Assembly: GCF_030369675.1 (NCBI RefSeq)
Contig: NZ_CP128477.1
Span: 1,984,001-2,048,000, forward strand
Direction of reading: 5' to 3'
DNA length: 64,000 nucleotides
Origin: Peteryoungia algae
GTDB lineage: Bacteria > Pseudomonadota > Alphaproteobacteria > Rhizobiales > Rhizobiaceae
Shown piece by piece: positions 48,396-52,646 of the stretch (its first letter is position 1; every line of letters begins with the position of its first letter). The position numbers and the translations under genes were made by a program. Below the pieces are notes generated by a model that worked only from the letters and a program-made list of their open reading frames with translations, searched no databases and was not told the DNA's origin.

Positions 48396-49892
48396 ATGAC
48401 CGAACAGACCACCGAAACCGCCCTGTCCTCCGACCCGACAGAAGTCCGCCGCCAGAAACTCGCGCTGCTGCGCGAACAGGTCGGCGACGTCTATCCGGCG
48501 CATTTCCACCGCACGATGACCAATGCGGAATTCGCCGAAAAATATGCAGGCCTGGAACTCGACGAAACGTCTGACGACATTATCACGGTTGCCGGTCGCG
48601 TCTATTCCTCGCGCAATTCCGGCATGTTCATGGATATCCACGACGCCTCGGGCAAGATCCAGATCTTCTCCCACAAGGACACGACGCCTGAAGGCGCCCG
48701 CGCGCTGCTGCCGATGATCGACCTCGGTGACATCATCGGCGTCACTGGCCAGGTGCGTCGCACGAAGCGTGGCGAACTGACGATCAACGCCCATGAAATC
48801 ACCATGCTGACGAAGACACTTCTGCCCATGCCGGAGAAGTATCACGGCCTCGCCGACATCGAGCTGCGCTACCGCAAGCGCCATCTCGATATCCTCACCA
48901 ACGAGGAGTCGAAGCTCCGCTTCCAGCAGCGCTCGAAGATCGTCTCCGGCATTCGCCGCTTCATGGAGGCCGAAGGCTTCCTCGAAGTCGAGACGCCGAT
49001 GTTGCAGACCGTTTATGGCGGCGCGACCGCCGAGCCCTTCAAGACGCACCACAACACGCTGAAGATGGACATGTATCTGCGCATCGCGCCGGAACTGTTC
49101 CTGAAGCGTACGCTGGTCTCCGGGCTTGCCGACAAGGTATTCGAGGTCAACCGCAACTTCCGCAACGAAGGTGTGTCGACCCGCCACAATCCCGAATTCA
49201 CCATGATGGAATGCTATTGGGCCTATGCCGACTACGAGGACATCATGGGCCTGGTCGAGCGCATGTTCGAGACGCTCGCCATCGCGATCCACGGAACGAC
49301 CGACCTCACGTTCGGTGACAAGCAGATCTCCTTCAAGGGCCCGTTCCAGCGCGTTCCCATGCCGGACGCCGTCAAGCAAGCAACCGGCATCGACTTCCTC
49401 GCGATGAAGACCGACGAGGAAGCCCGCGCCGCCGCCAAGGCCGCCGGCTTTGCCGTCGAGAAGGACTGGACCTGGGGCGAATGCCTCGCCTTCATCTTCG
49501 AGGAAAAGGTCGAGGGCACGCTGATCCAGCCGAGCCACGTCACGCATTTCCCCAAGGACATCTCGCCCTTTGCCAAGGAAGTTCCCGGCGAGCCGCGCCT
49601 CGTCGAGCGTTTCGAGACCTATTGCAACGCCTGGGAAGTCGGCAATGCCTTCTCCGAGCTCAACGACCCGGAAGAACAGCGCAAGCGCATGGTCGAGCAG
49701 CTCGAACAGGCCCATTCGCGCGGCGAAAAGGACAAGCAACTCGACGAAGAGTTCCTCGACGCGATCGACCAGGGCATGCCGCCGGCCGGTGGCCTCGGCA
49801 TCGGCGTCGACCGCCTGATCATGCTTTTGACCAACGCGCCCTCGATCCGAGACATCATTCTATTCCCGGCGCGACGCAACAAGGCCGACTGA
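48396..49892 (+). CDS. lysS: Lysyl-tRNA synthetase, class II
   Basis: 498 residues with the OB-fold anticodon-binding domain (TVAGRVYSSRNSGMFMDIHDASG near 63-85), motif 2 FRNEGVSTRHNPEFTMMECYWAY and motif 3 GLGIGVDRLIMLL. Charges tRNA-Lys. Many alphaproteobacteria instead use the unrelated class I enzyme, so the class II type is worth noting; whether a class I gene exists elsewhere cannot be seen here. Ends at a good terminator. No strong ribosome site before the ATG. Confidence 0.96.
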   Translation: MTEQTTETALSSDPTEVRRQKLALLREQVGDVYPAHFHRTMTNAEFAEKYAGLELDETSDDIITVAGRVYSSRNSGMFMDIHDASGKIQIFSHKDTTPEGARALLPMIDLGDIIGVTGQVRRTKRGELTINAHEITMLTKTLLPMPEKYHGLADIELRYRKRHLDILTNEESKLRFQQRSKIVSGIRRFMEAEGFLEVETPMLQTVYGGATAEPFKTHHNTLKMDMYLRIAPELFLKRTLVSGLADKVFEVNRNFRNEGVSTRHNPEFTMMECYWAYADYEDIMGLVERMFETLAIAIHGTTDLTFGDKQISFKGPFQRVPMPDAVKQATGIDFLAMKTDEEARAAAKAAGFAVEKDWTWGECLAFIFEEKVEGTLIQPSHVTHFPKDISPFAKEVPGEPRLVERFETYCNAWEVGNAFSELNDPEEQRKRMVEQLEQAHSRGEKDKQLDEEFLDAIDQGMPPAGGLGIGVDRLIMLLTNAPSIRDIILFPARRNKAD

Positions 49893-50013: not shown

Positions 50014-51546
50014 TCAGTGATCAGCCTTTGCGTGCTCGTCGCCCTTGGCCTTAGCCTTGGGCGGCAGAATGGCCTCGTCCTCGGCAGGCGCGGCATGCTG
50101 CTGAACGACTGGCGCGACCGGTTTCGAAACGTGCTGCTCGCCGACAGGCGCATGATCGGTTGCGCCACCATGCTCCTCAGCCTTGCCCGGCGCAGCTGCC
50201 GCTCCCGCAGCATCGGGCGAAATCGGCTGCGCCCGCATCTGCTCGAGCCAGGCGGCGCCATGGTCGGTGCTTGCGCCAGCATCTGCGCCTTGTGGTTCCT
50301 CGGTCTTGGCAACAACATCCTCGGCAACGGCCTCTTCCTCGGAAGCCCCCAACCCGACCATGCCCTTCAACGAATCCAGCCAGCCCCCTTGAGAAGCAGG
50401 GGCCTCTTCGGTTGTGGGTCCATGCCCCACAGCCTTCTCGACAGCGGCGCCATGCTCGACGGCGGCATCATGGCCGGCGGCTTCGACGCCCGTGACCGGT
50501 TCTTCTGCGGCCTCATGCGCTGCCTGTTGTTCGCCATGCTCGCCATGCTCGCTATGCTCGGATGACTCGGCATGCGTGGCCACGGCCACCGCTTCCTTGC
50601 CATGAGCCTTTTCCGGAGCTGCGTGATCCATCGCGGGCTCGGTCCGGCCATCGCCATGCGCCACGGCCGCAGGCTCGACATGTTCTTCGGCCGGCGCATC
50701 GTGGCCATCGGCGACAGCGCCGTGACCATCCGCCGGCGCGTCACTGCCGCCAAGGCCGACCATGCCCATCACCGACGCCATCCAGCCCTTGCTTTCCTCC
50801 GCGCCATGTTCGGCAACGGGCGTTTCCTCGCCATGCTCGCCGGCAGGTGCATCGCCGTGTCCTTCGGCCGGCGCTTCGCCGTGGCTGTCGGCCGGGGCGC
50901 CGTGACCGTCACCTTCGGCCGCCTTCTCACCATGCCCTGCCGCCGGCGCACCATGTCCGCCACCATCGGGCACCGCCACATCCGCCTTCATGCAATCGGC
51001 CTGGTCGTTCAGATTGGCAACGAGACCTTCGATATCGGCTTCGAGCATGTCGATCCGGTCGCCGAAGAACTGGCCGTTCGGCGCGGCAAGACCATCGACA
51101 TAGCGCGCGGTGAAGACCCGCGCAGAGACTTCCTCAGGCACGTGGGCGGGGTCTGGAACATAGACGACATCTGCACCGACGGCGCGACCGCGCATGCCGG
51201 ACCGATCCTTCGGACCATTCGCGTCCAGCACGACGACCTGCACCAGATCGGCTTTCTTCGCTTCCTGCACCGCCTTTGCCACGCGCAGCGCCGTCTTGAC
51301 GCGCGCCAGACCATCGCCGGGTTCATCGGTGGTGACGAATGTTCGAACCCAGAACCGGTCCTTCTTGTGAATTTCGACCGAAGTGACCTCGGTGCATTCG
51401 AGCCCGTTGAGCTCCGCATAGGATGGCCCGAGCAGTTTGTCCGCACCGATATAGACGGCGGCCGCACCCGTGCCACCGAGGGTCACGAGAACCCCGCCCA
51501 ATACCAGCATGAGCTTTCGTGAAAGGTGGATCTTCGGCACCTTCAC
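50014..51546 (-). CDS. Membrane-anchored His/Ala/Glu-rich protein of unknown function
   Basis: 510 residues from the GTG at 51546, which has GGAG 8 bases upstream; the only earlier start in frame is a TTG without a site. One membrane helix (residues about 12-36, LMLVLGGVLVTLGGTGAA) places the rest in the periplasm. A globular part of about 150 residues follows, then roughly 310 residues of acidic low-complexity sequence with 28 histidines, mostly as GHG, EHG and DHA units. Two copies of the motif GW-x2-S-x2-GMVGLG-x-S interrupt it. It is divergent from sitABCD, sharing a 212-base promoter region with two Mur-like palindromes. No family recognised; a periplasmic metal-binding or buffering role is inferred from composition and position. 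Confidence 0.75.
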   Translation of the reverse strand: MKVPKIHLSRKLMLVLGGVLVTLGGTGAAAVYIGADKLLGPSYAELNGLECTEVTSVEIHKKDRFWVRTFVTTDEPGDGLARVKTALRVAKAVQEAKKADLVQVVVLDANGPKDRSGMRGRAVGADVVYVPDPAHVPEEVSARVFTARYVDGLAAPNGQFFGDRIDMLEADIEGLVANLNDQADCMKADVAVPDGGGHGAPAAGHGEKAAEGDGHGAPADSHGEAPAEGHGDAPAGEHGEETPVAEHGAEESKGWMASVMGMVGLGGSDAPADGHGAVADGHDAPAEEHVEPAAVAHGDGRTEPAMDHAAPEKAHGKEAVAVATHAESSEHSEHGEHGEQQAAHEAAEEPVTGVEAAGHDAAVEHGAAVEKAVGHGPTTEEAPASQGGWLDSLKGMVGLGASEEEAVAEDVVAKTEEPQGADAGASTDHGAAWLEQMRAQPISPDAAGAAAAPGKAEEHGGATDHAPVGEQHVSKPVAPVVQQHAAPAEDEAILPPKAKAKGDEHAKADH

Positions 51547-51674
51547 GCTTGGAACTCCGCCATGACACCGCCCCGACTGTTTACGCAATACTGAGCGGCA
51601 CCATACGTCCCTCTCCTTGCGGAACCTTTAACCGGGCATTTCCAGTTCCGGCACAGCCAATTTGGCAGCAGTTT

Positions 51675-51691
51675 TTGCAAATGATTTGCAA
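51675..51691. promoter_or_regulatory. Candidate Mur/Fur-type operator, site 1 (perfect palindrome)
   Basis: TTGCAAATGATTTGCAA is a perfect 8-1-8 inverted repeat in the sitABCD promoter, 61 bases before site-2's downstream ATG at 51753. Rhizobial sit operons are known to carry two Mur-responsive sites that act with manganese, and this arrangement fits. Confidence 0.75.
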
Positions 51692-51727
51692 GAGCATTGA
51701 CATCAGCAAGAAGCGCTATAGATTTTA

Positions 51728-51744
51728 ATGCGAATGACTTGCAA
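51728..51744. promoter_or_regulatory. Candidate Mur/Fur-type operator, site 2
   Basis: ATGCGAATGACTTGCAA matches site 1 in 14 of 17 positions, with centres 53 bases apart. It lies 8 bases before the first sitA ATG, so binding there would block transcription or initiation. Confidence 0.65.
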
Positions 51745-51752
51745 GAACAGGA

Positions 51753-52646
51753 ATGAACATGGTGTTGAAGCTTGCCTGCCGTCTATTCGCCCTGGCGCTC
51801 CTGCTGCCGGGGGTGGCCTCCGCCGACGACAAACCCAAGGTCGTCACGACCTTCACCGTGATTGCAGATATCGCCCGGAATGTCGCAGGCGATGCCGCGA
51901 CCATTGAAAGCATCACCAAACCCGGCGCCGAAATTCACGGCTATCAGCCGACACCGCGCGACATATTGAAGGCCCGAGACGCCGATCTCGTCCTGCGCAA
52001 TGGATTGAACCTCGAAGCCTGGTTCGAAAAGTTCCTCGTCAATCTCGGCGATGTTCCGACCGTGACCGTAAGCGACGGCGTCGAGCCGATGGGCATTGCC
52101 GGCGGCGCCTATGAAGGCAAGCCCAATCCGCATGCCTGGATGTCACCGGCAAATGCACTCGTCTATGTCGAGAACATCCGCAAGGCGCTGACCGATCTCG
52201 ACCCCGCCAACGCGGCGATCTACGAGGCCAATGCCCGCACCTATTCGCAGCAGATCAGCGCCGAAATCGAACCGATGAAGGCCGAAATCGCCAGGATCCC
52301 GGAGGACGAGCGCTTCCTCGTGACCAGCGAAGGCGCTTTCTCCTATCTCGCCCGCGACCTCGGCATGAAGGAACTCTATCTATGGCCGATCAATGCCGAC
52401 AGCCAGGGCACGCCCCAGCAGGTCAAGGCAGTGGTCGACCAGGTGATCGAAAACAAGATCCCCGTCGTATTCTCGGAAAGCACTGTCTCCGACAAACCGG
52501 CCAGACAGGTCGCAGCCGAAACCGGCGCCCGCTATGGCGGCGTCCTCTATGTGGACTCGCTGAGCGAGGCGGACGGTCTGGTCCCGACCTATCTGGATCT
52601 CCTGAAGGTGACGGTTTCGACCATCGTGAAGGGATTTGCCGGATGA
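51753..52646 (+). CDS. sitA: Manganese/iron ABC transporter substrate-binding protein
   Basis: 297 residues (an ATG two codons in, at 51759, is better placed behind AGGA). Signal peptide to about residue 24 (GVASA), then the cluster A-I metal-binding fold with the four ligands His62 (EIHGYQ), His127 (PNPHAW), Glu193 (TSEGAF) and Asp268 (YVDSLS), the PsaA/TroA set. Captures Mn2+ (or Fe2+/Zn2+) in the periplasm. The rhizobial sitA type is suggested by the two Mur-like sites before the gene. Translational coupling to sitB by ATGA. Confidence 0.95.

Follow-up and report, generated by a model that had tools for sequence, protein, structure and literature searches.

A single-anchor, histidine-tailed protein family of Rhizobiaceae: a tentative envelope tether and apparently incidental neighbour of a manganese importer

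In the genome of Peteryoungia algae (Alphaproteobacteria, Rhizobiaceae), a gene for a 510-residue histidine-rich protein lies divergent from sitABCD, a manganese import operon encoding a ZnuA-family binding protein, an ABC ATPase and two ABC-3 permeases. Is this protein part of manganese uptake, or does it serve the envelope in some other way? The initial annotation had suggested a possible periplasmic metal reservoir or SitA donor, co-regulated with uptake. The question was addressed in a 64,000-nucleotide stretch of contig NZ_CP128477.1 (positions 1,984,001 to 2,048,000; hereafter the window) and by comparison with relatives of the gene. The features of the locus are collected in Table 1.

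Table 1 Features of the locus, in window coordinates
Feature	Position	Strand	Remarks
lysS, usual neighbour, convergent	48396..49892	+	
Coding sequence of the 510-residue protein	50014..51546	-	GTG start at 51546, stop at 50014
C-terminal histidine codon (CAC)	50017..50019	-	
Low-complexity tail, residues 191-510	50017..50976	-	28 His in 320 residues
Candidate docking motif copy 2, GWLDSLKGMVGLGAS, residues 388-402	50341..50385	-	pN/pS 0.30
Candidate docking motif copy 1, GWMASVMGMVGLGGS, residues 254-268	50743..50787	-	pN/pS 0.18
Domain, presumed periplasmic, residues 48-187	50986..51405	-	bracketed by C51 and C185
N-terminal hydrophobic anchor, residues about 12-34	51445..51513	-	read by eye
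Second conserved block TATTGCGT, about -44	51583..51590	-	upstream-region comparison
Conserved upstream element TTAAAGGTTCCGCAA	51617..51631	-	71-85 bases before start
Palindrome 1, Mn-type box, assigned to sitA	51676..51690	.	pattern search; follows sit in relatives
Sigma-70-like promoter site between boxes, towards sitA	51697..51724	+	10/12 letters, shuffles mean 0.2
Palindrome 2, Mn-type box, assigned to sitA	51729..51743	.	53 bases from palindrome 1
sitA-like metal-binding protein, neighbour outside family	51753..52646	+	

The gene has a single match in the whole genome. The interval first assigned to it ends at 51758, beyond the coding sequence, and includes the intergenic sit promoter. 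The GTG at 51546 fits the starts of near relatives, and an alternative TTG start at 51588 is possible and would give 524 aa. The membrane-anchored, histidine-rich protein described from the sequence is real. Ahead of the anchor, residues 1-11 are basic (by eye), and within it the small-residue pattern G24, G27, A30 is invariant in a 58-row alignment (A2) and not all invariant in a more divergent one (A3). The two cysteines that bracket the domain are both invariant in 25 of 25 divergent rows, the full set of invariant columns being C51, R82, L101, G111, P112, R115, G124, Y149, G158, G162 and C185. A C51-C185 disulfide probably clamps the domain, for which 19 sequences of the window's clade gave a pN/pS of 0.19.

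One divergent genus (g13) carries a variant in which the frame extends about 205-245 residues upstream to a MAKK start, for a total of 520-563 residues. The extension is Lys-rich, precedes the hydrophobic stretch and contains three repeated basic LFGFL-RKKK-like segments, together with a KRGRPKK segment (KRGQPKK in one member) that resembles an AT-hook. The position of this Lys-rich extension before the hydrophobic stretch suggests that the latter is not cleaved off but anchors the protein in the membrane from within the chain, with a cytoplasmic N-terminus. All four sampled members (L042, L044, L180, L181) have two copies of the tail motif described below and Glu-rich tails, with 0, 3, 0 and 0 tail histidines, respectively (the last two by eye). 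The motif is therefore independent of the His-rich filler.

A protein search with residues 1-195 returned 196 relatives, of which the best 120 were listed. Of 297 genomes from the host's own family, 81 gave a match, spanning 26 of 109 genera, and a profile of 25 rows found the same 81 genomes. Each of these sampled bearers has one place for the gene; in the profile search one genome showed an additional fragment, also at that place, and in two genomes (G014, G245) the gene was reported with in-frame stops. When 297 genomes were drawn from the whole order, the five that matched all fell within the host's family, so the family looks clade-limited at this search sensitivity. A scan of named genomes likewise gave 196 relatives; the best 80 were taken and bear the titles Rhizobium, Agrobacterium, Allorhizobium, Neorhizobium, Pseudorhizobium, Ciceribacter, Peteryoungia, Endobacterium and other Rhizobiales, from which the group is here called Rhizobiaceae. 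A record titled as a metagenome-assembled Arenimonas (L116) also holds this rhizobial gene with lysS and sit, and is perhaps a mis-binned contig.

The protein had been assigned to no named family, and a search of its globular part had been proposed. The absence of a named family is supported, as all Pfam and NCBIfam models stayed below their cut-offs: the whole 510-residue protein matched no family of either library at E ≤ 1, six proteins of the family gave nothing near a cut-off in NCBIfam, and the domain alone produced two chance-level NCBIfam hits (14.2 and 13.2 bits). A PDB search by sequence profile found no solved relative, with three weak hits (best E 0.038), and nine proteins of the family gave nothing below E 0.16 in PHROGs. 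Membership in DUF4875 (PF16175) was considered and rejected, as the best score of 24.4 bits lies just under the 25-bit cut-off. Matches to it at E ≤ 1 were seen for 9 of the 58 members of A2 (best E 2.7e-5, L129, residues 57-133), the window's protein being without a match, and a DUF4875 scan was silent in all 21 genomes and all 14 controls, which does not prove absence. Searches of the literature library used found no paper naming DUF4875, nothing on a His-rich hypothetical protein beside lysS in Rhizobium, and nothing on a C-terminal histidine of periplasmic proteins in Rhizobiaceae.

Loci were compared in two sets, comprising 60 of the 81 family places (stretches up to 19 kb) and the 80 named loci, or 141 with the window. 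The sets overlap in organisms, giving 135 distinct proteins among 140 closed ones, and the locus counts are hence not independent. Tail length across the family ranges from 4 to 389 residues. Both copies of GW-x2-S-x2-GMVGLG noted in the tail of the window's protein are present, and one degenerate DNA pattern for the motif matched only these two places in the 4.4-Mb genome (control 0). Using a matrix built from 16 instances of this family, the window's included, and counting scores above the 99.9% level of the best ones that shuffled tails gave, the motif was detected in 88 of 135 proteins. Among tails of at least 200 residues it occurs in 66 of 69, with two copies in 62. By the same test 47 of 135 proteins lack it, 40 of them having tails under 60 residues, so docking by the motif would not be universal.

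Across 120 distinct copies the main motif columns are G (113), followed by W/F/L/M (119), S (97), M (105) and V/I (111). In 19 sequences of the window's clade, pN/pS of the two copies was 0.18 and 0.30, compared with 0.37 elsewhere in the tail. Motif cores had a helical moment only moderately higher than that of shuffles (0.25 vs 0.19), with a low value of 0.11 for copy 1 of the window. Presence of the motif changes state at least 10 times on the tree, and the pair may either be ancestral and then lost, or have been gained repeatedly. The early hint of a duplicated docking or membrane-touching element is supported as a candidate, the motif ranking with the best conserved parts in the tail.

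A second conserved feature is the last residue. Histidine ends 108 of the 135 distinct proteins (window included), compared with a histidine content of 6.5% elsewhere in tails; among the tails under 60 residues, 34 of 40 end in histidine, compared with 3.8%. The terminal codons are CAC (64) and CAT (44), followed by TGA, TAA or TAG, and the DNA downstream is not alike between relatives (by eye). Given the two codons, three stops and unlike downstream DNA, the conservation looks to act at the protein level. At least one member in 22 of the 26 genera has the terminal histidine, as does the majority of members in 19; the exceptions include g13 (...YN) and Agrobacterium vitis with nearby rows (...SLR). 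At least 16 state changes were counted on the tree.

From the anatomy and conservation of the family we infer an inner-membrane tether that would dock via its tail to an envelope partner, a reading adopted tentatively as the best supported, with its chances judged somewhat short of even. The short basic N-terminus would stay in the cytoplasm, and one helix would anchor the protein. The small domain would stand in the periplasm, probably clamped by its disulfide, while the long and probably disordered tail would reach outward across the periplasm to a partner, which may be a protein or the facing lipid layer. Docking would occur via the two hydrophobic motif copies and often also the C-terminal histidine; tail length and filler would drift freely, and selection would keep the docking points. 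Tethers of the TolA/TonB type are single-span periplasmic proteins in which one N-terminal helix is followed by a long low-complexity stretch that reaches a partner. The present protein would share the helix and the long low-complexity periplasmic stretch with them, to judge from its sequence read by eye and from the long N-terminal extension in g13, but it has a folded domain next to the membrane and short linear motifs on its tail. No Pfam or NCBIfam match to TolA or TonB was obtained at E ≤ 1.

The histidines of the tail raise a different explanation, namely a periplasmic metal buffer or metallochaperone whose GHG/EHG/DHA tail would bind Zn, Ni, Cu or Mn ions close to the inner membrane and without involvement of sit. 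This we consider rather unlikely, although several features are in its favour. His makes up at least 4% in 80 of the 90 tails that reach 100 residues. In the window's clade, pN/pS of the tail histidine codons was 0.08 (an alignment-biased value), below that of the motifs and the lowest of the residues tested, and with each letter masked in the alignment raw retention was highest for His (0.70), followed by Gly (0.65), Pro (0.64), Lys (0.62) and Ala (0.60), with E, D, V, S, T and Q at 0.24-0.55. The unmasked value of 0.85 for His was set aside as partly an alignment effect. In addition, the terminal histidine together with its carboxylate could chelate a metal. However, the masked lead over Gly and Pro is small, and retention expressed as fold over own frequency (8.3 for His) is exceeded by Q, K, V and S. 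Four of the 90 longer tails have under 2% His, the 40 tails under 60 residues hold 0-6 histidines, and no steady metal-gene neighbour was found among the genes looked for in the sampled loci. ZinT and ZrgA, periplasmic His-rich metal binders, would share a His-rich segment and a periplasmic location with this protein; no such family was matched, and His content varies widely here. Metal or proton binding may be a property of the long tails, with nothing in these comparisons linking it to manganese.

Two further explanations concern the same tail. In the first, the protein would act in the periplasm as partner to a sensor kinase or an envelope machine, in a regulatory or pH-sensing role, with tail histidines and acids changing charge near pH 6 and thereby altering docking. 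The His- and acid-containing tail, the single anchor and the same conserved motifs would suit such a role, but besides sit any cluster of upstream neighbours was prominent in a minority of loci at most (the clusters are unannotated and were built from stop-to-stop frames with much out-of-frame noise), and we regard it as improbable. In the second, the tail would be mostly slippage-driven, functionless filler and the domain alone would matter. Consistent with this are the range of tail lengths, the repeated GHGEAPA-like units, and the tails of two loci (L116, L139) that look frameshifted near the end, where the DNA past the stop is tail-like in another frame (by eye). The motif pair and the terminal histidine nevertheless persist in most long tails despite tail turnover, which leaves this explanation, too, with only a small chance.

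The neighbourhood of the gene bears on manganese. In the 60 sampled loci lysS adjoins 57 and sitA 18; lysS is missing at L065, L068 and L076, of which L076 lies at a contig end. Over all 141 loci, window included, lysS adjoins 138, whereas a full sitABCD lies beside 67, a partial one beside 2 and none beside 72. Adjacency to sit changes at least 10 times on the domain tree (a quick tree with 51 of 132 inner branches open). Neither His content nor tail length differed between the 18 loci with sit and the 42 without (p 0.24 and 0.54), and seven independent pairs, too few for a test, had no trend in motif or tail by sit. The gene's position beside the importer therefore looks incidental, and a part in sit-type manganese import by steady linkage was rejected.

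After sitD, the window also contains an ArsA-type ATPase gene (PF02374, 55340-57124), whose cluster occurs in 18 loci, 17 of these with sitA. In Ciceribacter naphthalenivorans (L108), lysS and this gene, with two motifs and 28 His, are accompanied by an ArsA-like gene on the other side, and no sit was found between the two.

The two palindromes in the intergenic region, which are putative Mur (Mn-type) boxes, are present as the initial annotation described. At three mismatches the pattern gave 6 matches in the window, 4 of which are the two sites on both strands and 2 of which lie elsewhere; shuffled controls gave a mean of 1.36 and reached 6 in 2 of 100. The promoter region had been read as shared, but both palindromes follow sit and flank the promoter-like site of sitA. 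Within 350 bases upstream and up to 3 mismatches, a palindrome was found in 61 of 67 full-sit loci (the six without being L110, L111 and L113-L116), in both partial loci and in none of the 72 sit-less loci. In the 40 two-box loci the spacing between boxes is 52-55 bases (53 in 33 loci), and the standard deviation of the near-box distance is 6.5 to the sitA start, as chosen by script, vs 33 bases to the start of this gene. The palindromes thus belong with sitA rather than with this gene, and membership of the Mur regulon on the ground of a palindrome kept across relatives was rejected. Mur control of sitA, with a Mur box upstream of sit, is reported for R. leguminosarum (PMC5575495); the neighbour operon there is the same, and here the palindromes follow sit, not this gene. 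A Mur-controlled manganese reservoir or donor for SitA, as first proposed, would account for the divergent arrangement with a complete sitABCD, which is seen at 67 of the 141 loci, the window among them, and for the near box lying 129 bases from the start codon, but appears already contradicted by the comparison and very improbable, given the box-free sit-less loci, the looser box distance to this gene, the tails and His content that showed no difference by sit, and L108, which keeps the gene with no sit beside it.

Sequence comparison points instead to upstream elements of the gene's own. Among 139 upstream regions (L042 and L044 were left out, their upstream being coding), TTAA-N3-4-TTC occurs in 116 at a median of -87 (shuffles 1.6), in 59 of 69 regions with sitA and 57 of 70 without. 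T[AT]TTGCGT was found at -44 in 65 of the 139, 40 with sitA and 25 without. Genome-wide, two strict forms of the TTAA-N3-4-TTC element had a single occurrence each, at this gene, and the reversed controls occurred 1 and 3 times. A sigma-70 promoter was sought up to 112 bases from the gene; over 64 sit and 68 sit-less regions the best scores were on average below those of shuffles, and no region reached 9 of 12. An ECF-type GGAAC-N15-18-CGTT was present in 0 of 141 upstream regions, a CtrA-type TTAA-N7-TTAA in 0 of 139, and TTAACCAT in 2 of 139 only.

The Rgs polar-growth proteins of Sinorhizobium meliloti (PMC7327166) include envelope proteins of unassigned function, some centred on Rhizobiaceae and near families. 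Compared by description, the present family would likewise be an envelope protein of unassigned function with a Rhizobiaceae-centred range; the passages compared hold no match to this gene. The gene occurs once per genome in the 81 sampled bearers, which come from a well-studied plant-associated group, and its family is named in none of the libraries used. The comparison weakens the manganese lead. The tether reading could be taken further: as an envelope tether specific to this lineage, the protein would organise or read out the periplasm through a code in which the two hydrophobic docking motifs, near-identical to each other, and the C-terminal histidine are the signs, the tail being free to vary in length and filler. 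In g13 the cytoplasmic arm, with its LFGFL-RKKK-like and AT-hook-like KRGRPKK segments, could then link the nucleoid or the membrane surface to the periplasm. We offer this wider proposal as speculative and on balance improbable. The cysteine pair, the two motifs, the last residue and the gene's own upstream element make what was a vague 'His-rich protein' directly testable.
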